Shown here: in pieces, positions 3,391 through 15,850 of the stretch
Position numbering within the stretch: the stretch's first letter is position 1
Layout: every line of letters starts with the position of its first letter
DNA from: Cohaesibacter haloalkalitolerans
GTDB lineage: Bacteria > Pseudomonadota > Alphaproteobacteria > Rhizobiales > Cohaesibacteraceae
DNA: 64,000 nucleotides
NCBI RefSeq assembly: GCF_003574655.1
Contig: NZ_QNUM01000003.1
Coordinates: 124,001 to 188,000, forward strand
Direction: 5' to 3'
The notes under the pieces: generated by a model
Told to the model about the DNA's origin: nothing
The model's input: the letters and a program-made list of their open reading frames with translations, nothing else
The model's database searches: none
Translations under genes and position numbers: made by a program

Positions 3391-5250
3391 TCAGGCCGCG
3401 GTCTTGCTGATCGGCAATCTGGCTTCCAGTGCCGAAACCACGAGCAACCGCTTGGCCAACGACGTTTTCAGCAACCCTGGGCTGCGCGATGCAGCAGCGC
3501 AGAAACGCTCGACATCGATCTGTGAGCGGTAGGTACGGTTTTCCCTGATCAGTTCGATGATCTGCACTGCATTGGTTTTGACAAACTCGCGCCCGTCCCA
3601 CCGGAATCCCTGTTTCTGCTTGCGCCACTGGGTGGGAAGCGAATGAAACGCATCAAACAGGCGCCTCAGTTCATGTTTGTTCCAGTCACCGACAAACTTG
3701 TTCTGATAGCCAGACCGGATATAGGGGAACAGGCGGTAGTCGAGGATCGGGCTTCGAGCCTCGATGCTGGCGCGCATCGAATTCCGGTCATTGTGCCAGA
3801 GCCATTCCCCAAGCCGACCTCCCGGCGAGACATCGGCGATCAACGCCTCGTCAAAGCCGAGGGAGGGGGTGATCGGGTCGATCTGCTGGCACTGGCGAAT
3901 GGCAGCCATATCCATCTTCATGATTGGATTGAGGCGGGTTCTGAGGCGGGTCTTTTCCAGCGCGAATTTTTCGACCATGGCATCAGGCATGAATGCGCTG
4001 GCCAAATGGGAAAGTGTCTCCTTCTTGCGGCTGCTGGCGAGCTGTTGACGGACCCACGACCAATCGCCGCCCTTGACCGCTTGCCGCACGGCTTGCGGGT
4101 ACTGTCGGCTCCAGTAGCCACCGAAAATTTCGTCGCCGCCCGTGCCGTCAAGCACCACCGGAACGCCACGCTCGGCAATCGCTTCATACATGACGGGCAT
4201 TGCCATCGAGCTCCCGTTGAGCGGAATGGGTTTTTCCATATGGCCGCAGATATCAAGGAAGCGCTCAAAGGCATTGGTGTTGTAATCGAGCTTTATGACT
4301 TCCGCGTCGACGCCCAACTGATCGGCGGACCGCTTGGCATAAATGTGATCATCCGATCGGCCGGTATCGCCGATGAAGATCTTGCATTGTTCATGGAGGC
4401 CGAGCGAATAGAGACAGGAGAAAACCAGCGAACTATCGATGCCGCCAGACAGCAACAGGCCGACCGGACGATCGGAGATCAGACGCTTTGTCAGGCTATC
4501 CCGAAGAAGATCCGCAAGCGACTCCTGAGAATGGATGTCGGGCGCATCAGCCTGAATGGCATAAGTGTCGAAATACGCTTCACAGGCAAAATCCCAGCGG
4601 TTGAGATCAAAGCGGGCGTTGTGCCCCGGAGGCACCTGCTTGATGCCGACCAGATGCGTGTTGAGCCCGTTTTGCGGGAACATGTCACCGAAAACCAGAA
4701 AATCGCTCATGATGCCTGCGTCAAACGCAAAGTCTCTGCCCAAATAGTCCATGATCGACCGGGCGGTAGACGACAGGCACAGGATGTTGTCATCCATATA
4801 GAAGAACAGCGGCTTCTTGCCATAGCGGTCTCGTGACGCCGAAACCGTCATCGTGCTGATGGTAAGCGACGAGAAGGACCACATTCCGTTCATGCGCGGC
4901 ACACGGGCAAGGCCGTGCAGCTGCAAATAGCGGCTCAGAACCTCGGTATCTCCGCGCGGGTGAATGTTCACACCTTCCGCTCTCAACTCCTCGGCAATGT
5001 CGCGGAAATTGTAGATCTCGCCGTTGAACAGCAGGATGCTGTCTTCCGACTGGTAGGGCTGGTTAGAGGTTTCCTGCACATCCAGAATCGACAGTCTCTG
5101 ATGCCCGAAGGCACAGTGAACATTGTTGATTTCCTTGAAGACAACGCCGGTGTTGTCGGGTCCACGATGCTTCATCGTGTCGAGCGCCTGCCTGAAACGG
5201 GCCTCATCTATCGGCGCATTCTTGCTAAATACCTGAAAAAATCCACACAT
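3391..5250 (-). CDS. asnB: Asparagine synthetase, glutamine-hydrolysing
   Basis: A 619-residue two-domain AsnB. The N-terminal glutaminase domain starts with the catalytic Cys2 (MCGFF) and has RGPDNTG (29-35), GHQRLSI (49-55), FNGEIYN (75-81) and GDTE (100-103). The synthetase domain has the ATP-binding PP-loop LSGGIDSS (267-274) and a late DRNSM...EARSPILD segment typical of the family. It would make asparagine from aspartate, ATP and glutamine; single-gene AsnB relatives also amidate surface sugars or secondary metabolites, which cannot be excluded. It is alone on the reverse strand among forward genes, with no glycosyltransferase or peptide-synthesis neighbours. The start is ATG after AGAGAA, and Cys2 requires that start. 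Confidence 0.9.
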   Translation of the reverse strand: MCGFFQVFSKNAPIDEARFRQALDTMKHRGPDNTGVVFKEINNVHCAFGHQRLSILDVQETSNQPYQSEDSILLFNGEIYNFRDIAEELRAEGVNIHPRGDTEVLSRYLQLHGLARVPRMNGMWSFSSLTISTMTVSASRDRYGKKPLFFYMDDNILCLSSTARSIMDYLGRDFAFDAGIMSDFLVFGDMFPQNGLNTHLVGIKQVPPGHNARFDLNRWDFACEAYFDTYAIQADAPDIHSQESLADLLRDSLTKRLISDRPVGLLLSGGIDSSLVFSCLYSLGLHEQCKIFIGDTGRSDDHIYAKRSADQLGVDAEVIKLDYNTNAFERFLDICGHMEKPIPLNGSSMAMPVMYEAIAERGVPVVLDGTGGDEIFGGYWSRQYPQAVRQAVKGGDWSWVRQQLASSRKKETLSHLASAFMPDAMVEKFALEKTRLRTRLNPIMKMDMAAIRQCQQIDPITPSLGFDEALIADVSPGGRLGEWLWHNDRNSMRASIEARSPILDYRLFPYIRSGYQNKFVGDWNKHELRRLFDAFHSLPTQWRKQKQGFRWDGREFVKTNAVQIIELIRENRTYRSQIDVERFCAAASRSPGLLKTSLAKRLLVVSALEARLPISKTAA

Positions 5251-5607
5251 GCCAATTCTCTAAAAAACATCTCGAAGCACGTTCGAAACTAACGTGTTTC
5301 TGTCGGGAAAACCACTGAAATATAACAGGGTATTCCGCAAACCGGAGAAACAGACAAAGCCCGTCATTTCCCCCCGACAGGAGCAACAAATGTCATATCA
5401 CAGAGGCCAGAGTGTTTGCAGTGCTGGAATGGCGGAAGATTTGGACACAGTTCGTTACAATTCGATACCGAGCAGCGACAGAAATGTAGGACATAAAGCA
5501 GCAGACCTTCAGGTTGGTGTAAGGTGGAGATGATTAATCGGGTACACTGCTTCAGAATTCGTGTCTGCCAATCAGCAGACCACCGTTAATTGAATAGGAA
5601 TACCCGA
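5251..5607. other. Divergent intergenic region, asnB / reductase
   Basis: These 357 bases hold the two divergent promoter regions of asnB and the flavocytochrome reductase. I see no convincing gene, repeat or strong hairpin. A short open frame near 5294-5533 has no ribosome-binding site and no recognisable protein signature. Confidence 0.5.
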
Positions 5608-7000: not shown

Positions 7001-7009
7001 AACCTATAA
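7001..7009 (+). promoter_or_regulatory. Motif AACCTATAA upstream of dap, shared with pip
   Basis: The nonamer AACCTATAA lies 77 bases before the dap ATG. The same nonamer, in the same orientation relative to the gene, lies 69 bases before pip at 14804-14812. A shared regulator site is inferred; chance is not excluded. Confidence 0.3.
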
Positions 7010-7086
7010 CAAATAGCATCTACAAACTGGCCCGGAATCGTTGTTAGGTTGATCATCAGGATTTTCCCAACCGAGCGGATTTGCAG

Positions 7087-8640
7087 ATGATTGATACTCT
7101 CCGACTAGACCAGATTCTAGATGCATTACCCAACATGTACCGTGGCCCCGGCGGGGTTGCTGGCGTCGTCAAAGACGGAAAGATCATCGCCTCCCGCGCC
7201 TGGGGCTATTCGGACCTTGCCTCCCACCGCAAGATGACAAAAGGCACGCGCCTGCCGATCTGTTCCATCTCCAAGCAGTTCACCTGCGCGGTCCTGTTGC
7301 ACACCTTCGATGACTTTGCACCACTCAATGCCCGCCTGCCGGAGCTGCTGCCCAATTTCGAAGGCCAGCTGCCGACCATCGAACAGCTTTGCCACAACCA
7401 GTCGGGCCTGCGCGACTATTGGGCTCTGACCATCCTCGAAGGGGCCAAGGCAGAACAGACCTTCGCCCGCAATGATGCCTATGCGATGTTCGAGAGGATG
7501 AAGAGCTGCCATTTCGAACCCGGCACCAGCTATTCCTATTGCAACGCCAACTTCCGCATCGTCGGAGAGCTGATCGAACGGGAAACCGGCCGCTCGCTTC
7601 AGGGGCTGCTTGCGGAAACCGTCTGGGGACCGGCAAACATGAAGACCGCCGCGCTGCTCTCCGACAGCCGCGTAACCGCCGATGGCGTCATCGGCTACGA
7701 AGGCAACGAACAGGTCGGCTTCATGCCAGCAGACAATGGCATCTACTGGTTCGGGGATGCCGGCATTTCAGCATCCCTTGAAGACATGCTCGCCTATGAA
7801 TGCTGGATTGATCAGACCCGAGACGACCCGGATAGCCTCTACAATCGCATTTCAACGCCACCGACCTTCAAGGACGGGACACCTGCCGGCTATGGCTACG
7901 GGCTGGCCCACATGGAGCTGGCCGGTCGCAAGGTGACCGGTCACGCAGGAGCCCTGCGCGGCTTCCGCGCCTTCCGCATGCATTGCGCATCCGAGCGCAT
8001 GTCGGTGGTCGTCATCCTCAACCATGAAGGCAGTGCCTATGGCGCAGCCGAGGCCCTGTTCAATGCCGCCCTCGGCTATAAAGCACCAAAGCCGATGCCC
8101 ATGCCTGAAGGTTGGGATGGCCAATGGCTCTGCCCCGAGGCCAACCTGCTGACCGCCATCGAAAGTGGCAAGACAGATGCCCATCTGCATTACTCGACCG
8201 GCGGCGACATTGTCTTTGCAGCCGAAGACGGCACCTTGAAAACTGCAAGCGTCACCCTCAGCAAGACCCAAGACACAATGACCATGACGAGGAAGGGTGA
8301 AAATCTGGTCTCCAAACTGGTGCCGCTGCCAAAATCGCCAGTAACGCCGGACGCAGAGTTCGCAGGTCGTTACTATTCGGACGAGCTCGACGCGACCTTC
8401 ACCGTGGTTGCCGAGGATGGCGGCCTCTATGCCTACTGTCAGGGCGTTCTTGGAACCGGCATCATGGAACGTGTCCATCCGGTCGGGCTCGACACATGGG
8501 TATTCGTCACCCGCCGCTCGATGGATGCGCCTGCACCAGGGGATTGGACCATCACGGCAACCCGTGGCGACGATGGCACCATCGAAGGCATCACGCTTGG
8601 TTGCTGGCTGGCACGCAAACTCGACTACCGCCGCCTGTAG
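7087..8640 (+). CDS. dap: D-aminopeptidase (penicillin-binding-like serine hydrolase)
   Basis: A 517-residue protein that I recognise as a homologue of the Ochrobactrum anthropi D-aminopeptidase DAP (about 520 residues). That enzyme is a cytoplasmic serine peptidase of the beta-lactamase/PBP fold that removes N-terminal D-alanine and other D-residues from peptides and amides. Catalytic positions fit: SISK (Ser60, Lys63), the Tyr motif YSYCN (Tyr151) and HAG (His286). The last two beta-barrel domains are present, with RYYSDELDATF and GCWLARKLDYRR near the end. There is no signal peptide. The frame also allows a TTG two codons earlier, which would give Ser62/Lys65/Tyr153, the numbering I recall for DAP. 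The facing peptide transporter and proline iminopeptidase suggest that it finishes degradation of imported peptides. Confidence 0.9.
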   Translation: MIDTLRLDQILDALPNMYRGPGGVAGVVKDGKIIASRAWGYSDLASHRKMTKGTRLPICSISKQFTCAVLLHTFDDFAPLNARLPELLPNFEGQLPTIEQLCHNQSGLRDYWALTILEGAKAEQTFARNDAYAMFERMKSCHFEPGTSYSYCNANFRIVGELIERETGRSLQGLLAETVWGPANMKTAALLSDSRVTADGVIGYEGNEQVGFMPADNGIYWFGDAGISASLEDMLAYECWIDQTRDDPDSLYNRISTPPTFKDGTPAGYGYGLAHMELAGRKVTGHAGALRGFRAFRMHCASERMSVVVILNHEGSAYGAAEALFNAALGYKAPKPMPMPEGWDGQWLCPEANLLTAIESGKTDAHLHYSTGGDIVFAAEDGTLKTASVTLSKTQDTMTMTRKGENLVSKLVPLPKSPVTPDAEFAGRYYSDELDATFTVVAEDGGLYAYCQGVLGTGIMERVHPVGLDTWVFVTRRSMDAPAPGDWTITATRGDDGTIEGITLGCWLARKLDYRRL

Positions 8641-8663
8641 AAAGCCCAAGCCCTCAAACAGAC

Positions 8664-8699
8664 AAAACCCGCAGCGATCACCTGATCCCTGCGGGTTTT
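8664..8699 (+). terminator. Terminator of dap
   Basis: An 11-bp inverted repeat, AAAACCCGCAG with CTGCGGGTTTT, begins 24 bases after the dap stop codon and ends in its own T-run. This is a good rho-independent terminator. Confidence 0.8.
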
Positions 8700-8753
8700 C
8701 TGTATCTGCTGCGACCTTGCGCAGTGCAATGCCCAGAGGCAGAGGCAAAAGAG

Positions 8754-8781
8754 GGCACCGCCCGGCTTGCTGGGCGGTGCC
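8754..8781 (-). terminator. Terminator of the peptide ABC operon
   Basis: A perfect 10-bp stem, GGCACCGCCC with GGGCGGTGCC, lies 13 bases past the stop codon of the reverse-strand binding-protein gene. On the reverse strand it is followed by CTCTTTTGC. It marks the 3' end of the operon. Confidence 0.8.
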
Positions 8782-8793
8782 TTGTATCAGAGG

Positions 8794-10311
8794 CTATTCA
8801 GCCGTCTTGACAGTGTCTTCCAGGAAGAAGCGACCGAGAGGGTTCTGGTCGAAATTCTTGATGCCCTTCTGGGTGACATTGATGAACGGGCTATAGAACA
8901 GATCAATCCAGTGTGCATCAGCCTTGGCCAATTTCTGGATTTCGAAATACATGGCCTTGCGTTTGGCCGAATCCAGCTCAAGACGGGCTTCGGCAACCAG
9001 CTGCTTGACCTTTTCGTTGTTGTACCGGGTCATGTAGTTCATGTTGACGTCATGGCCCACAACGAAGGTGGTCTTCTGATCGGGGTCGAGAATGTCGTTG
9101 GTCCAGTACATCATGGACAGGTCATAATCGCCAGCAACCAGCATGTCCCAGGTCTGACTCGGGTCCATTTTCACCAGATTGATGGTGATGCCGATAGCGG
9201 CCAGCTGCTGCTGGATCAAAACGGCAACCTGTTCGTCAACTTCGTTGCCGGCATTTACCAGATAATCAAGCGAAATGCCGTCGACGCCAGCTTCTGCAAG
9301 CTCGGCCTTGGCTTTTTCGAGGTCGAAGTCACGAGCCCCGTTTTCATCGCTGTGATAGAGAGCCCCAGCCGGAATGAAGCTGTTGGCAACCTTGCCCTGA
9401 CCGAAGGTCACGGCATCAACGATAGACTGCTTGTCGATGGCGTAGTCGATGGCAGCACGGACATGAACATTGTTGAGTGGCTCATGCTCGTGGTTCATCA
9501 GAAGATGATCTTCACGGGTGGAGGGCTCGATGTGAACGGTAAGCTTGTCGTCGGCCTTCAGCTCTTCCACGCGGGAGAACGGCACATAGATGGCGGCATC
9601 AAGCTCGCCGGACTGAACGCTCAGCATGCGGGTGTTGTCATCCGGCATGGAGATCCATTCGACGCCATCAAGGCTAACCTTGTCTGCTTGCCAGAACTCG
9701 GGGTTCTTGGCAAGGATGACGCGGTCACCGCGCAGCCATTCCTTCACGACGAAAGCGCCGGAAGCAACCGGGTTCTGGGAATAGTCTTCCTGACCCTTTG
9801 CTTCAAAACCGGCCTTGGAAATGACAGAGGTGGCAGGCATGGCGAGGGTGGAAAGGAACGGAGCCGACTGTTCGGACAGGGTGATGACAAGCGTCTTGGG
9901 ATCCGGGGTCTGCATGTCGGAGATGATCTTGTAGCTGTCAGACCACAGGGAAAGTTCATCGTCACGAACGCGCTCAAGAGAGAATTTGGCGTCTTCGGAC
10001 GTGATGGCAGAGCCATCGGAGAATTTCGCATCACGAAGATGGAAGGTGTAGGTCAGGCCGTCCGTGGAGATGTCCCAGCTTTCGGCAAGACCGGGCACCA
10101 GCTCGGCACCGGTTTTGTCGACGCGGACCAGCACGTCATACACGTTCATGAAAACCCAGAAGTCGATGTTCTGGGCGGTGTTGATCGGGTCGAAGGTGCT
10201 GGAGTCCTCACGGCGACCGATGGAGAGCACGCCTGCAGCATCGGCCACAGTCATCGCGCCCATGACAAGGGTCATTGCAAGAAGTCCCACACGGGAAAAT
10301 TTTCTGAACAT
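8794..10311 (-). CDS. Peptide ABC transporter substrate-binding protein
   Basis: A 505-residue periplasmic binding protein of the SBP_bac_5 (DppA/OppA/NikA) family. Residues 1-25 form a signal peptide with a positive start, a hydrophobic core and cleavage near ADA-A. The sequence then reads as a family member with LVPGLAESW, the family signature region, and a C-terminal YSPFINVT stretch. There is no lipobox. It would bind oligopeptides or related solutes and deliver them to the permeases encoded just upstream. It is the last gene of the reverse-strand operon, 48 bases after the ATPase gene. In PipR-type systems the matching transporter is reported to be needed for signal response, so this protein may bind the inducing molecule as well as nutrients; that part is inference. 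Confidence 0.88.
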   Translation of the reverse strand: MFRKFSRVGLLAMTLVMGAMTVADAAGVLSIGRREDSSTFDPINTAQNIDFWVFMNVYDVLVRVDKTGAELVPGLAESWDISTDGLTYTFHLRDAKFSDGSAITSEDAKFSLERVRDDELSLWSDSYKIISDMQTPDPKTLVITLSEQSAPFLSTLAMPATSVISKAGFEAKGQEDYSQNPVASGAFVVKEWLRGDRVILAKNPEFWQADKVSLDGVEWISMPDDNTRMLSVQSGELDAAIYVPFSRVEELKADDKLTVHIEPSTREDHLLMNHEHEPLNNVHVRAAIDYAIDKQSIVDAVTFGQGKVANSFIPAGALYHSDENGARDFDLEKAKAELAEAGVDGISLDYLVNAGNEVDEQVAVLIQQQLAAIGITINLVKMDPSQTWDMLVAGDYDLSMMYWTNDILDPDQKTTFVVGHDVNMNYMTRYNNEKVKQLVAEARLELDSAKRKAMYFEIQKLAKADAHWIDLFYSPFINVTQKGIKNFDQNPLGRFFLEDTVKTAE

Positions 10312-10359
10312 TGTTTTGGTGTTCCTTCTGTTATGTGATTGCGTTTGTTGTGTGTTTTC

Positions 10360-12036
10360 TCAATTGCCCTGAATTGCGCGGGCGACCGTTCTGGTGCCAA
10401 TCGGCTTGTCGGGATCAATATTGGGGATCGCGGCCAGCAGATTTGCGGTGTAGTCCTGCTCGGGATTATCGAAGACGTCTTCGGTTCTGCCAGCCTCGAC
10501 AATGCGACCGTGATGCATGACAATCACGCTTTCACAAAGCTCGCGGACGATGGCGAGGTCGTGGGCAATGAAGATGATGGTCAGCGCCATTTTCTCCCGC
10601 AGTTCCTTGAACAGCGAGATGATCTGAGCCTGAATGGTCACATCAAGCGCGGCAACGCACTCATCGGCGATGATCACCTTGGGATTGACGGCGAGGGCAC
10701 GGGCAATGCCGACACGCTGACACTGGCCACCGGAGAGGCTCTTTGGCTTGCGTGGGCGGAAGGATACATCAAGGCCCACCAACTCCAGCAATTCGTCAAT
10801 CCGGCTGTCAATGGCGTTCCTTGCGATCTCGCCCTGCGTTTCCAGAACCTCGCGCAACATCGCTTCCACCGTCATGCGTGGGTTCAGCGCATTGAACGGA
10901 TCCTGAAACACCATCGCCACTTCCCGGCGCAGTTTCCTGAGGGCCTGATCGCGTTTCAAGGTCAGCACGGCACCATCATAGGCAATATCACCCGAGGTGA
11001 TGGGGGTGAGGCCGATCATGGCCCGCGCCAGTGTGCTCTTGCCCGAACCGCTTTCCCCTACGATACCGATCGTATCGCCGGGGAAGATCTGGCAACTAAC
11101 CCCCGCCAACGCCCGGAAGGCAGCTTTGGAGCGAAACCAGCTTTTGCCTGCGTTGAACTCGACCACCAGATCATCCACCTCGAAGATCGGCTTTATGTGC
11201 GGTTCTTCCACCACGATATCATCGTCAAGCGCACGGCTTGCCAGATGGTCATCGAATGAGGGGTGAGAAGCGATCAGCGTCTTGGTATAGCTGTGCTGCG
11301 GAGCAGACAGCAGCTTGCGCTTTTCTTCAATTTCGACGATCCGGCCTTCTCGCATCACGGCAATCCGGTCGCAGGTTTGCGCCACGACGCCCAGGTCATG
11401 CGTGATGAGAATGATGGAAAGCCCGCGTTTCTTGCGCAACTCCAGCAAAAGCTCCAGAATTTGCGCCTGCACGGTCACATCAAGCGCCGTGGTCGGCTCG
11501 TCGGCAATGAGAATTTCCGGCTCGCAGGAAAGGGCGATGGCAATCATCGCGCGCTGGCGCATGCCGCCGGAAAATTCGTGTGCATAGCTGCGGAAAGCCC
11601 GGGCGGGATCGGGAAAGCCGACCTGTGTCAACAACTCGATAGCCTGCACTCTGGCATCCTGTTTGGAATAGGAGCCGTGACGGAACAAGCCTTCGCAGAT
11701 CTGGTCGCCGATACGCATGACCGGATCCAGATGGCTGGTCGGGTTCTGGAAAATCATCCCGATGCGCCGACCGCGCACATCCATCATCGCCTTTTCCTCA
11801 AGGCCGAGAATGGACCGGCCCTCGAGCACAACGTCGCCGCTGGTAACCGACAGTTTCGTTGAGGGCAGCAAACCGATGATCGCCCGACACAACAGGCTCT
11901 TGCCAGACCCGCTTTCGCCCACAAGGCCAAGAATTTCCGACTGGCCAAGATCGAAAGTGGCATCTTCCAGCAAAGAACGGGTTTCCACCTTGTCCTGATA
12001 GCTGACCGAGAGGCCTTTTACGGAGAGAATGGTCAT
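10360..12036 (-). CDS. Peptide ABC transporter ATPase, two fused domains (DppD-DppF type)
   Basis: A 558-residue protein with two complete ABC ATPase domains in one chain. Domain 1 has Walker A GESGSGKS (40-47), signature FSGGMRQ (155-161) and Walker B LIADEP. Domain 2 has Walker A GESGSGKS (327-334), signature LSGGQCQR near 444-451 and a second Walker B IIADEC. Peptide importers usually use two separate ATPases, but the fused form is known. The Walker B of domain 2 ends in Cys after Glu rather than the usual Pro; the catalytic Glu is kept. The start overlaps the upstream permease stop by four bases (ATGA), showing translational coupling. Confidence 0.9.
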
Positions 12037-12884
12037 ACTTCAGCCTCCCACATGTCACCAAGGGCATCGCCCAGCAACGAGAAGCCCAAAGCGAGGCAGA
12101 CAATGGCAAAGCCGGGGAAGAAGGTGATCCACCAAGCCTGCGTGATGAAGCCCTGTCCTTCGGCAACCATGATGCCCCATTCGGCAGCAGGCGGCTGAAC
12201 CCCAAGCCCCAGATAGCTGATGGCAGCACCATTCAACAGCACCAGAATGACATCGGACATAGCAAAGACGATGGAGCCGGTGAGAGCGTTCGGCAGCAGG
12301 TGACGAAACATGATGCGTAGCCGAGAGTAGCCCAGACTCTGGGCAGCAACGGCGAAATCCATCGTTTTCAGCACGAGAATCTGCGCCCGCACCAGTCGGG
12401 CATAGCTGACCCAGCCAACCAGCGCCATGGCGATATAGAAACTCGCCAGACCGGGGCCGAGAATGGTGATGATGGACAGCATCAGAACGAGAAAAGGAAA
12501 GGCCAGCACAATATCGATGATGCGCATCAGGATGGTATCGACGATACCGCCCAGAAAACCGGCCACCGTTCCCAGAATCGTCCCGATGATCATCGGGAAC
12601 AGCACGCCCAGCAAGGCTATCTGCAAGTCGATCCGCACGCCCCAGATTACGCGGGAAAGAACGTCTCGGCCGAAGTTGTCCGTGCCAAACGGATGCAGCA
12701 GAGTAGGGGCCTGCAGTCGCGCACTGGCGTCCTGCAGAATCGGATCGAACGGAGCCACCAGCGGCGCCAGAAGGGCCGCCGCGATGAAGAAAGCCAGAAT
12801 GCAGAACCCGAGCGTCAGGGTCGTGTTACTGCTCATCAGGGCGCGCCATTTGAGCTGAGGGAAGAAGGGTCTTGTTTGCGCCAT
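12033..12884 (-). CDS. Peptide ABC transporter permease (DppC type)
   Basis: A 283-residue inner-membrane permease of the DppC/OppC type. It has an N-terminal membrane helix (about 18-42), a periplasmic stretch with FGTDNFGRDVLSRVIWG typical of DppC proteins, and about five more hydrophobic segments. The cytoplasmic EAA-like loop is around QSLGYSRLRIMFRHLLPNAL. It forms half of the translocation channel with the DppB-type permease. Its ATG shares a base with the stop of that gene (TGATG), so the two are coupled, and its own end overlaps the ATPase gene. Confidence 0.9.
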   Translation of the reverse strand: MAQTRPFFPQLKWRALMSSNTTLTLGFCILAFFIAAALLAPLVAPFDPILQDASARLQAPTLLHPFGTDNFGRDVLSRVIWGVRIDLQIALLGVLFPMIIGTILGTVAGFLGGIVDTILMRIIDIVLAFPFLVLMLSIITILGPGLASFYIAMALVGWVSYARLVRAQILVLKTMDFAVAAQSLGYSRLRIMFRHLLPNALTGSIVFAMSDVILVLLNGAAISYLGLGVQPPAAEWGIMVAEGQGFITQAWWITFFPGFAIVCLALGFSLLGDALGDMWEAEV

Positions 12885-13825
12885 CAGAATTTCACTCTCG
12901 GATCAAGGGCTACGGTCAGGATGTCGGCAAGGAAGTTGATCAACAGGGTTGCAACGGCAAACACCATGGCAACGCCCTGAACCACCATGTAATCTCGCGA
13001 GAAGATGCCGCGAACCAGCAGTTGCCCCATACCGGGCAGAGCGAACACGCTCTCCACCACCACCGTGCCACCGATCAGCCAGCCGATATTGACGGCAAGC
13101 AGGTTGATGGTGGGCACCAGCGCATTGGGCACCACATGCCGCCAGAACACCGTGTTTTCCGATACCCCACGCGCCCGGGCAGCCGTCGCGATATCCGAAT
13201 TGAGACCGGAAATCATCGCCGCCCGCAAGCTGCGGGTGATGACCGAAGACAGCGAAAGCGCAATGGTCAGACAGGGCAGAACAAGGTGAAGAGCCTTGTC
13301 CTCGAAGGACTTGCCATAGCCGGACACCGGCAACCAATTGAGACTGACCGCAAACAGGATGATCAGCATGACGCCAAGCCAGAACTGCGGAAAGCCAAGC
13401 CCGGCAGTCACGGCGATACGGGCAAAATGATCCGGCCATTGGCCCTGCTTGCGCGCCGAAAGAGCCGCCAGCGGAACGGCGATCACCAGCGACAGCAGCA
13501 CTGCAAAGAAAACCAGCATCAGCGTTGGTTCAATGCGCGTAGCGATCAGCTTCAATACGTCGATCTTGTAAAGGGTCGAACGCCCCATTTCACCGTGAAC
13601 CAGATTTTTCAGGAAATAGAAATACTGGGTGATCATCGGCTCATCGAGCCCATATTGCGCCCGTATCTTGGCAAGGGCAGTCGGGGTCGAACGCGCACCC
13701 AGCAACACCCGTGCAGGATCCCCGGGGATAAGGCGCACGAGAATGAAGGTGACAACCGAGATGCCAAACATCACAGGCAGCAACTGGAACGGACGGAACA
13801 GGACAAAGCGATAACGACCCAGCAT
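12884..13825 (-). CDS. Peptide ABC transporter permease (DppB type)
   Basis: A 313-residue permease of the DppB/OppB type. The N terminus RFVLFRPFQLLPVMFGISVV and LIPGDPARVLLG are the expected first helix and following family motif. YGLDEP and LGEMGRS-like text (here HGEMGRS) precede the remaining helices, and the coupling loop lies around ARARGVSENTVFWRHVVPNA. It pairs with the DppC-type protein in the inner membrane. Its start lies three bases after the stop of the pip gene, so peptidase and transporter are almost certainly one transcript. Confidence 0.9.
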   Translation of the reverse strand: MLGRYRFVLFRPFQLLPVMFGISVVTFILVRLIPGDPARVLLGARSTPTALAKIRAQYGLDEPMITQYFYFLKNLVHGEMGRSTLYKIDVLKLIATRIEPTLMLVFFAVLLSLVIAVPLAALSARKQGQWPDHFARIAVTAGLGFPQFWLGVMLIILFAVSLNWLPVSGYGKSFEDKALHLVLPCLTIALSLSSVITRSLRAAMISGLNSDIATAARARGVSENTVFWRHVVPNALVPTINLLAVNIGWLIGGTVVVESVFALPGMGQLLVRGIFSRDYMVVQGVAMVFAVATLLINFLADILTVALDPRVKF

Positions 13826-13828
13826 GCT

Positions 13829-14734
13829 TTACTCGCTATCATACTTCGACAGGAAGGCTTCTACGACGGCCATACAATCCTCTTTTTCCTCTACATGGGG
13901 CATGTGGCTTGAGTTGGGGAAGACATGCGCAACCACATCGGGGATATTGTCCCAAAAAGGCTGCAAGCACTCGGTGGTTGCTTCGTCATGGGCGCCGCGA
14001 AACGCCAGCGTTGGCGCTTTGACCTTGTGCAGGCGATCAATGATCGACCAGTCCTTCATGGTGCCGATGACGTGAAATTCGGTTGGACCATTCATGGTGT
14101 GATAGACAGTGGGGTCTTCATCCATCGCATCGAAGGTCCGCTGCACCTCCACCGGGCGTGGCTTGGTGCGACAGACATGACGATCATAGAAGACCTCGGT
14201 CGCTGCTTTATAGTCGGGATGGTCGATTGTGCCAGCCTTTTCATGCAGATCCAGAGTGTCCTGCACATCCTGCGGCAATTGGGCCCGCAGCTCGGCAGCC
14301 CCTTTCAACCAGATTTGCATGTTGCACGGCGAGTTGGCCAGAACCAGCGCCTTGAGGCCAGCCGGCTGCCTGACTGCATGTTCAGACCCGAGCATGCCGC
14401 CCCAGCTTTGCCCCAGATAGGCATAGCGGTCCTGAATGCCCAGATGGCTGAGCAGCGCGTCCAATTCGCCTAAAAAAAAGTCAACTGTCCAAAAATCAGC
14501 CCCTTTTTCGCGCAGGTGCGTCGACTTGCCGTTGCCGATCTGGTCATAGTGGATGACAGGGCGGCCCGTTTTGGCCAGGTCCATAAAACTGTCGATATAG
14601 TCGTGAGTGCACCCTGGACCGCCGTGCGCCACCACCAGGGGAAGCTTGGGCGAGTCGAGGGATCCGCAGATCCGATACCAAGTTTTATATGTCTGATAAG
14701 GCGAATAGCCTTCCTGAATCTCAAAATCTGCCAT
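13829..14734 (-). CDS. pip: Proline iminopeptidase / L-amino acid amidase family (S33 hydrolase)
   Basis: A 301-residue alpha/beta-hydrolase of peptidase family S33. Seen directly: HGGPG oxyanion motif (37-41), nucleophile elbow GQSWGG with Ser110 (108-113), acid Asp250 in GAHDEAT and His277 in SSHMPH. No signal peptide is present. Family members release N-terminal proline from small peptides, or hydrolyse amino acid amides (LaaA type); the two cannot be separated by sequence alone. GAGG at a five-base spacing precedes the ATG. It is the first gene after the LuxR solo and leads directly into the transporter genes. In OryR/XccR/PipR-type loci the gene next to the regulator encodes exactly this enzyme family and is its target. 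Confidence 0.88.
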   Translation of the reverse strand: MADFEIQEGYSPYQTYKTWYRICGSLDSPKLPLVVAHGGPGCTHDYIDSFMDLAKTGRPVIHYDQIGNGKSTHLREKGADFWTVDFFLGELDALLSHLGIQDRYAYLGQSWGGMLGSEHAVRQPAGLKALVLANSPCNMQIWLKGAAELRAQLPQDVQDTLDLHEKAGTIDHPDYKAATEVFYDRHVCRTKPRPVEVQRTFDAMDEDPTVYHTMNGPTEFHVIGTMKDWSIIDRLHKVKAPTLAFRGAHDEATTECLQPFWDNIPDVVAHVFPNSSHMPHVEEKEDCMAVVEAFLSKYDSE

Positions 14735-14762
14735 CTAAACCTCATTGTCTTGCTGAGATCCA

Positions 14763-14790
14763 ATCCTAGGCACATTCGACCATTCACCAA
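14763..14790 (-). promoter_or_regulatory. Candidate promoter of the pip operon
   Basis: On the reverse strand TTGGTG (14785-14790) and TAGGAT (14763-14768) are 16 bases apart and stand about 30 bases before the pip start codon. This fits a sigma-70 promoter of modest quality. The prediction is by eye only. Confidence 0.35.
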
Positions 14791-14811
14791 TAGCTAATGA
14801 ATCTTATAGGT
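14786..14811 (-). promoter_or_regulatory. Candidate LuxR-type operator (imperfect dyad)
   Basis: An imperfect 26-bp dyad with outer arms ACCTATA and TATTGGT (six of seven positions symmetric) overlaps the proposed -35 hexamer of the pip promoter. LuxR proteins typically bind a dyad of about 18-20 bp overlapping or just upstream of -35. Position fits; symmetry is weak in the centre and the length is larger than a classic lux box. Confidence 0.3.
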
Positions 14812-14821
14812 TCTGCAAATT

Positions 14822-15589
14822 TCAGTTGGTTGTTTCGAGCAATTGATAGTGCGCAGCGAGCACCAGCGCGTGAAAGCGGTTGCGCGCGCCGAGCTTTTTG
14901 GTCGCCGAGGTGAGATGCAGGGTAACCGTAGCAACCGAGCGCCCGAGCTCATGAGCAATTTCCTTGGCAATCAACCCCTTTGCACACAGCTGCAGACACT
15001 GCCGCTCGCGAGCAGTGAGCCTGACATGCGGCGTGCGAAAAGCTTGTGGAGGAAAGCCCTTGACGACCGCTTCATGAAAGATATGAGCCAGATAACCAAC
15101 TGACGAAACAGCATTGTTCAGGTCATCAATGTCGATTCTGGACGTGCTGATCGCTGTAAAGGTCGCCAAAGCACCACCTGCGCCGCGAATGGGCACCGTG
15201 ATGCCGCTTTCCATGCCGGTGTCACACAGATAATCGACCACCGGCCGATGGCGCTGATCCAGAATCCGGCTCATGATATCACTTTGCTGGCCGCGATAGG
15301 TCCAGATGAACGGGCAGGACGTTTCGCGCGACGCATCCATGACCGGATCATGGGCATAATAATGCTGGCCACACCACAGGTCCGTCATGTCACTGGGGGT
15401 GTTCTGCATGGCGTAGACAGTGGGGACGATGAATTCACCGTCATGGGTGAGGGGGACGGGGGAGAAATCGTAGCTCGATGCATCAAACCCCAGGGGACGC
15501 AGAACGGTTTGCGCGATCTCCATCGCATCGTCGAGTGCAATTCCCGAAGAGAGTGCACTTACGAAATCATGTTGCATATTACTCACCAT
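14822..15589 (-). CDS. LuxR solo with altered ligand pocket (PipR/OryR-like)
   Basis: A 255-residue regulator with an N-terminal autoinducer-binding domain (about 15-165) and a C-terminal LuxR helix-turn-helix beginning LTARERQCLQLCAKG (near 191). In TraR numbering the conserved pocket residues Trp57 and Tyr61 are replaced: counting back from the conserved Asp-Pro (Asp81-Pro82), Met68 and Trp72 occupy these places. Trp96 (TraR 85) and Gly129 (TraR 113) are kept. This Met/Trp pair marks the subfamily that answers plant-derived compounds instead of acyl-homoserine lactones. No luxI gene is in the window. AAGGAGG lies only a few bases from the first ATG, so GTG at 15586 or ATG at 15577 may be used instead. 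It probably controls the downstream pip-transporter operon. Confidence 0.9.
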   Translation of the reverse strand: MVSNMQHDFVSALSSGIALDDAMEIAQTVLRPLGFDASSYDFSPVPLTHDGEFIVPTVYAMQNTPSDMTDLWCGQHYYAHDPVMDASRETSCPFIWTYRGQQSDIMSRILDQRHRPVVDYLCDTGMESGITVPIRGAGGALATFTAISTSRIDIDDLNNAVSSVGYLAHIFHEAVVKGFPPQAFRTPHVRLTARERQCLQLCAKGLIAKEIAHELGRSVATVTLHLTSATKKLGARNRFHALVLAAHYQLLETTN

Positions 15590-15762
15590 TGCCTCCTTTC
15601 TTGCGTACCAGTCTTTATCTTATGCAAGTGCCACGCCAATCTCGTTTAACATGCAAAACAGGGGCGAGGCCAAAGGCAGACATTAGACATCCATTCCGCA
15701 GAATATCCGGCACGTAAGCCAAAACCGGCGGAGCGGTATCAAGACAATCTTTCAGGAGGAAA

Positions 15763-15850
15763 TGGCGGAGGGGGAGGGATTCGAACCCCCGGGACCGTGA
15801 AGCCCAACGGTTTTCAAGACCGCCGCAATCGACCACTCTGCCACCCCTCC
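15763..15850 (-). tRNA. tRNA-Ser (anticodon UGA)
   Basis: An 88-base serine tRNA on the reverse strand. The acceptor arm GGAGGGG pairs with CCCCTCC, the discriminator is G and CCA is encoded. The anticodon loop CTTGAAA gives UGA (bases 15814-15816), reading UCA codons. A long variable arm and a T-loop TTCGAAT are present, as expected for class II tRNA-Ser. Its 3' end faces the accessory peptide region and its 5' end the conserved rlpA cluster. Confidence 0.96.

Follow-up and report, generated by a model that had tools for sequence, protein, structure and literature searches.

Sequence analysis of a rearranged OryR/PipR-type locus with a D-aminopeptidase gene in Cohaesibacter haloalkalitolerans

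Results

Gene content of the locus

The locus described here lies in a 64,000-nucleotide stretch of the Cohaesibacter haloalkalitolerans genome (assembly GCF_003574655.1, contig NZ_QNUM01000003.1, positions 124,001 to 188,000), referred to below as the window, with positions counted from its first letter. Six minus-strand genes run from 15589 down to 8794 and encode, by Pfam and NCBIfam families, a LuxR solo, a proline iminopeptidase-family hydrolase (PIP, gene pip), two permeases, a fused ATPase and a solute-binding protein (SBP; Table 1). An earlier reading of the sequence only, made without database searches, had listed these six genes on the reverse strand and described pip through the ATPase gene as joined by 3-base gaps or overlaps. 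All six genes were confirmed at their place; pip is separated from the first permease gene by 3 nt, the permease genes overlap by 1 nt and the permease and ATPase genes by 4 nt. The remaining spacings are 87 nt (luxR-pip) and 48 nt (ATPase-SBP). A D-aminopeptidase gene, which the same reading had called divergent, does lie at the far end but is convergent with the SBP gene, the stop codons of the two genes standing on either side of the gap 8641-8793. Four further genomes of the genus share this gene order, including the D-aminopeptidase gene (5/5 with the system), which suggests that the gene set is more than a chance assembly. Pattern searches of the region for sigma-70-like promoters and for terminators gave hits at or below the shuffled background, which were set aside.

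Table 1. Features at and around the locus (positions in the window)
Feature	Positions	Strand	Basis and remarks
LuxR solo, OryR/PipR type	14822-15589	-	Autoind_bind and GerE; M68 and W72 at the TraR W57/Y61 positions
PIP, PipA type, not AapA type	13829-14734	-	Pfam/NCBIfam, identity comparison
AapB-type permease	12884-13825	-	Pfam/NCBIfam, locus comparison
AapC-type permease	12033-12884	-	Pfam/NCBIfam, locus comparison
Fused double ATPase, AapD-AapE equivalent	10360-12036	-	Pfam/NCBIfam, locus comparison
AapF-type SBP, family 5	8794-10311	-	Domain and structure match, identity to GM79 AapF
OryR/PipR-type box AACCTATAAGATTCATTAGCTA	14791-14812	-	Centre 67.5 bp upstream of pip start codon; matrix score 21.6 bits
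D-aminopeptidase, S12 family	7081-8640	+	SxxK at 62-65, YxN at 153-155; alternative start possibly ATG 7087
Weaker OryR/PipR-type box AACCTATAACAAATAGCATCTA	7001-7022	+	Upstream of D-aminopeptidase gene; 11.8 bits
Sigma-54-like -24/-12 element TGGCGTGGCACTTGCA	15623-15638	-	Upstream of luxR; similar element at same place in 5/5 genus genomes
Terminator-like hairpin	8754-8781	-	3' of SBP gene; pattern hit, such hits not above shuffled background

A regulator of the OryR/PipR family

Both domains of the regulator score above the Pfam cut-offs. Compared with TraR, it carries M68 for W57 and W72 for Y61 and retains D70, P71, W85 and G113. The genome encodes two other LuxR-type regulators, on contigs C22 and C24, both of which retain W and Y; its single LuxI match lies on C22 next to the regulator there, and none was found at this locus. 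In a tree of 42 rows, the window's regulator falls into a clade of 32 rows (support 100/99) together with Xanthomonas, Pseudomonas and rhizobial loci. Within this clade M is present in 28/32 rows and W in 32/32, whereas all eight rows taken to be of the type that binds N-acyl homoserine lactones (AHLs), including both other LuxR proteins of the genome, have W/Y; two more rows outside both groups have W/Y and W/W. PipR of Pseudomonas sp. GM79 was placed inside the same clade by a second tree (100/99) and has W/W. The trees used 24 and 25, respectively, of 80 named related loci (L numbers below). The first was built without L033 (PipR) and L099, and the second with L033 and without L099 and four long AHL rows. 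OryR is represented by Xanthomonas homologues, OryR itself being absent from the set, and L018, in which the luxR reading has an in-frame TGA, was kept out of protein alignments and trees. A subclade of nine rows (99/99) unites the regulators of the five genus genomes with those of a metagenome-assembled genome (L022), Tropicimonas isoalkanivorans (L023), Oceanicella sp. (L024) and Aureimonas sp. AU20 (L127).

Six queries for LuxI gave a match in only one of 89 related loci (L083), 6.7 kb from its luxR. A canonical AHL receptor is ruled out by the pocket residues (no W57/Y61), by the tree and by the lack of a paired luxI. The earlier suggestion of a PipR-like LuxR solo with its own PIP and peptide importer is borne out by the clade, the residues and the AapF-type SBP described below; the regulator falls outside the AHL receptors in the trees, and the genome's own LuxI is encoded on another contig. 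Judged from these comparisons, the locus is a genuine member of the OryR/PipR ("Pip") family.

Two observations concern regulators elsewhere. A second LuxR solo at C24:85032-85496 (L016) has its AHL residues intact and, inspected by eye, lies near an SsuB/TauB-like ABC transporter and an XRE-type regulator. Eight loci of the Pseudomonas oryzihabitans/rhizoryzae type (L035, L037, L043, L044, L048, L055, L062 and L064) encode a LuxR of the OryR/PipR kind and show no match to the window's PIP within about 9 kb on either side (E 1e-5). The two that were checked, L035 and L044, fall inside the OryR/PipR clade with M/W, which argues against the statement that every known member has an adjacent pip.

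A box upstream of pip

The luxR-pip intergenic sequences of related loci share a common dyad. A site of the searched form was present in 67/71 loci (L022-L101, with pip at most 500 bp after luxR), at a median of 67.5 bp before pip. The matrix derived from it comprises 30 distinct sites from the 67 loci, none of them from the window's genus and one (L022) misplaced. The best site of the whole window is the one before pip, and the runner-up scores 13.5 bits; 4 Mb of random sequence contained no site of at least 20 bits. A degenerate form of the box, allowing up to two mismatches, matched 5,014,206 bases once, at the same site, against ten matches for the reversed pattern. Sites of at least 10 bits were counted on the pip side (68) and on the divergent side (72) of the 80 named loci. 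The corresponding site of GM79 is centred at -71.5 and is required for PipR-dependent transcription (PMC4981722).

Identity of the hydrolase and the importer

PIP passes TIGR01250 with 243 bits (cut-off 167.65), and its best solved-structure match is 7a6g (438 bits), which we take to be an L-proline amide hydrolase. It is 56-67% identical to most PipA-type neighbours, with lower values at L067, L074 and L075 (45-47%) and higher values at L022-L024 (73-82%); identity to AapA-type proteins is 32-38%. Searching with PIP (E up to 1e-25) gave a single match in each of the five genomes. AapA was not found in the window's own genome: a Shinella AapA query, 70% identical to GM79 AapA, matched only PIP there, at 37% (E up to 1e-5). 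The SBP matches the AapF structure 7kz8 with 687.9 bits, the next structure scoring 195.5, and is 64.4% identical to GM79 AapF over 500 residues, which makes the importer one of the AapB-F type.

One direction instead of two arms

The usual layout elsewhere consists of two divergent arms, one with the importer and AapA and the other with luxR-pipA. For 43 of the 80 named loci, as well as for L015, an AapF-type SBP gene (63-70%) lies upstream of luxR on the other strand; not one of the 80 has such a gene on the luxR strand, as far as the DNA examined around each extends. All five genomes of the window's genus have luxR-pip-permease-permease-ATPase-SBP in a single direction. Because an AapB-type permease (75% over 163 residues) directly follows pip at the contig end of L022, the one-operon layout may predate the genus. 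A full copy of the GM79 locus is ruled out, since AapA was not found and the layout differs; the earlier claim that the locus reproduces the whole PipR set thus fails on both the missing AapA and the replacement of two arms by one operon. As far as sequence comparison goes, the locus is a rearranged OryR/PipR member, new in its layout and in its D-aminopeptidase.

The D-aminopeptidase gene and the distribution in the genus

The D-aminopeptidase passes NF009622 with 696 bits (cut-off 443) and matches PDB 1ei5 over residues 2-519 with 490 bits; its SxxK and YxN are presumably the catalytic motifs. Searches with the LuxR protein (E up to 1e-20) gave matches in 5/18 genomes of the genus, of which 16 have a completeness of 90% or more and a contamination of 5% or less, and in 1/43 other genomes (61 searched). 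A class-wide draw gave LuxR in 5/385 genomes, the window's own included (at most six candidates scored per genome). The three genes for LuxR, PIP and SBP are confined to one set of 5/18 genus genomes, and the D-aminopeptidase gene is present in those five and in G004. It is thus present in 1/13 genus genomes without the block (Fisher p = 0.0007, uncorrected for kinship or linkage). DNA similarity between the first 40 kb of the window and a 16-kb stretch of G016 is confined to 7073-15585. Three flanking genes were tested: none of them was found in the 18 kb compared from each of G011 and G006, and G001 has all three.

In G004, the flanks of the window are present at 90-92% identity and 8646-15759 is replaced by 261 bp, a state that would be most simply explained by loss of the six genes; 3446-5442 is missing as well. 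One block edge carries tRNA-Ser(tga) at 15763-15850 (minus strand), also found at 7215-7302 of L119. The window and G004 sequences part at 15760, beside the end of this tRNA gene, and G001 has about 1.3 kb extra between luxR and tRNA-Ser(tga), so that the place next to the tRNA gene is a variable spot.

The box upstream of the D-aminopeptidase gene reaches 12.9 bits in G001 and 16.3 bits in G016. A convincing box in all five genomes was rejected: only 3/5 have one, and L013 and L014 give 8.8 and 7.1 bits at other spacing. The box in G004 is split by a 9-bp tandem duplication, a single event in a single genome. Searching the genome with a pattern built from the window's site returned one hit, meaning merely that the site is not repeated.

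D-aminopeptidases and exchanged importers elsewhere

On plasmids, the D-aminopeptidase was found at 25 places in 24 records, and an Aap importer was present in three of the 18 neighbourhoods read. Neorhizobium SOG26 has a complete Pip locus and, like the window, a D-aminopeptidase gene convergent on AapF. In Rhodobacter CZR27, the gene is convergent on an Aap importer beside a formamidase/ANTAR operon, with no luxR or pip in the stretch. Shinella HZN7 retains AapA and has the D-aminopeptidase gene directly after luxR, in the usual place of pipA. A rule of two hydrolases holds for the window, which combines PipA with a D-aminopeptidase, and for HZN7, which combines AapA with one; SOG26 has all three. 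At L135, L148, L150 and L141, D-aminopeptidase genes cluster with P1 and M55 peptidases, a D-amino-acid transaminase or an L,D-transpeptidase family gene, in what looks like D-peptide or muropeptide catabolism.

The importer is exchanged as well. At L023 and L024, the divergent genes, again under a box (17.3 and 28.3 bits), encode another kind of family-5 importer, the SBPs of which are 27-29% identical to that of the window and 85% identical to each other (for the Tropicimonas protein, the first 95 residues were left out of the comparison). Both genera are marine. Aureimonas AU20 has an importer of this type after its luxR. L022 carries an amidase operon (formamidase family, AmiC/UrtA-like, AmiR-like) beside luxR-pip; an operon of the same type, with a formamidase 82% identical, lies beside the Aap importer of CZR27. 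The Nitratireductor OM-1 locus combines pip and luxR with a box, a carbon-nitrogen hydrolase gene and a further importer.

A possible sigma-54-type promoter of luxR

The columns upstream of luxR that are invariant in the five genomes include TGG-N8-TTGC. Sigma-54 promoters have a -24/-12 consensus. Against this consensus TGGCGTGGCACTTGCA scores 15.7 of 16.9, and the elements of the five genomes, 33-39 nt before the luxR start used, score 15.3-16.9; for random 250-bp pieces taken from the window, the 99% point is 15.3. The pattern alone is not significant (one found against 0.35 expected, and 16 against 15 in a looser form), and the element is worth naming because of its conservation and not because of its score. 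RpoN is encoded in the genome. A sigma-54-type promoter may drive luxR and would then link the regulator to nitrogen supply. TGG-N8-TTGCT also precedes luxR in Pseudomonas, with 15.9/16.9 at L025-L029 and L031, and with 14.9/16.9, under the control's 99% point, at L035, L037, L043, L044, L048, L055, L062 and L064.

Discussion

We consider it likely that the locus is a Pip-type circuit of sensing, import and hydrolysis that has been rewired into one operon. The AapF-type importer would carry a small amide or peptide-like compound into the cytoplasm, where the LuxR solo, with its non-AHL pocket, would bind it and activate the promoter with the box before pip. Activation would raise PIP and the importer, a positive feedback on uptake, and PIP would end the response by cleaving the compound, a negative feedback of the kind proposed for GM79. 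The D-aminopeptidase would act as the second hydrolase of the circuit in the place of AapA, with a weaker box of its own in the window and in close relatives. The order of events is probably import, sensing, induction and hydrolysis. What is new relative to GM79 is that the importer genes follow pip nearly without gaps behind the regulated promoter, and uptake should therefore induce itself. PIP, AapA and the D-aminopeptidase may have amide chemistry in common; an ethanolamine ammonia-lyase encoded in the genome is compatible with such chemistry and not specific to it.

Several findings weigh against the inclusion of the D-aminopeptidase. Its box is weak, with about 0.5-1 site of 11.8 bits expected in every 64 kb, and 2/5 genus genomes have a poor one or none; the D-aminopeptidase genes of HZN7, SOG26 and CZR27 each lack a dedicated box reaching 10 bits. 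Of the plasmid neighbourhoods read, 15/18 are away from Aap importers, in several cases close to a different peptide importer or to D-amino-acid enzymes, and AapF-type proteins occur on 151 plasmid records against 24 with the D-aminopeptidase, so that the pairing is a minority arrangement outside the genus. The gene could be a mere neighbour that stands outside the circuit, in keeping with its position on the opposite strand and its persistence in G004 without the other six genes. We regard this as unlikely, given that the gene accompanies the block in 5/5 genomes with differing flanks, is rare in genomes without the block and joins Aap importers in the Neorhizobium, Rhodobacter and Shinella lineages.

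The nature of the signal bears on two further alternatives. According to a 2023 review (PMC10134790), the OryR/PipR circuit occurs only in plant-associated bacteria and senses a signal from plants. The circuit could detect a compound from a plant, a seagrass or an alga, with peptide uptake only as the way in for the signal, and both the pocket substitutions and the box are as in known OryR/PipR systems. We give this the smaller chance, as the importer is unrelated (27-29%) in the nearest named relatives, Tropicimonas and Oceanicella, an aquifer isolate is reported to have a regulator with these substitutions (PMC8105983) and PipR of GM79 responds also to peptone (PMC4981722). The patchy presence in the genus and the links to amidases and a D-aminopeptidase fit nutrient use. 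That the LuxR solo instead responds to an AHL, made by the cell's own LuxI or by neighbours, and thereby switches on peptide uptake is very improbable: the genome does have one LuxI/LuxR pair on another contig, and D70, P71, W85 and G113 are kept, but M/W at positions 57/61, against W/Y in 8/8 AHL-type rows, and a place inside the OryR/PipR clade speak against it.

Under the preferred reading of a rewired Pip-type circuit, a nutrient or amide switch is as plausible as plant sensing, because in the closest relatives the regulator is found together with an unrelated importer or with amidase genes. The inducer of GM79, the ethanolamine derivative HEHEAA, is an N-substituted glycinamide. One speculative extension, which we would not favour at present, is that OryR/PipR regulators fundamentally serve to switch on the scavenging of small amides, including D-amino-acid and glycine amides, and not plant sensors. 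A portable regulator-pip core would have been joined to varied importers and amide hydrolases (AapA, D-aminopeptidase, formamidase, nitrilase-like); in the genus of the window, an L-alanine aminopeptidase would have been exchanged for a D-aminopeptidase, so that the inducer would be a D-alanyl or glycyl amide, HEHEAA being one such substrate. The exchanged second peptidase, the importer behind the target promoter of the sensor, and the sister loci with other importers and amidases make the locus a testable case for a small amide or peptide nutrient as the signal class. The swaps of AapA here and of PipA in Shinella, both for a D-aminopeptidase, point at the chemistry of the ligand.

Comparison with known systems

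Among open-licence PMC papers, none was found that joins a D-aminopeptidase with a LuxR and a proline iminopeptidase, and no link of such systems to the sea or to RpoN was seen among the matches listed. The closest described system is PipR/PipA/AapA-F of GM79 (L033), with which the window shares a LuxR solo of the same clade, an adjacent PipA-type hydrolase, an importer of the AapB-F type and a box at a near-identical place before pip (-71.5 as published, against a centre at -67.5). The response of GM79 depends on the importer and increases when the peptidases are lost; pipA is activated by PipR, and the aapA promoter is only slightly PipR-responsive (PMC4981722). A box is also present at the aapA promoter. 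The window differs from GM79 in having one operon and not two divergent arms, in the fused ATPase, in the D-aminopeptidase at the far end, in that AapA was not found and in M at position 57, where GM79 PipR retains W.

The divergent Pip loci of rhizobia and their relatives (L015, L066, L068-L072, L077-L085, L087-L095, L097, L098, L100, L101) resemble the window in the fused ATPase (60-63%), SBP (63-70%), pip (62-67%) and boxes, but have two arms with AapA and a LuxR only 38-42% identical. The OryR/XccR/XagR type of Xanthomonas dyei and other Xanthomonas species shares the M/W pair, the downstream pip and the same kind of box, and unlike the window has no ABC importer at the locus, as also stated in PMC4981722. 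The D-aminopeptidase resembles DAP, the protein of PDB 1ei5, over residues 2-519 and in both motifs; DAP finds biotechnological use as a D-amino-acid amidase (PMC7431475). Plasmid pShin-11 of Shinella HZN7 (L132) likewise brings together a PipR-type LuxR, an Aap importer and a D-aminopeptidase, and is the mirror image of the window in that the D-aminopeptidase replaces pipA and AapA is kept.

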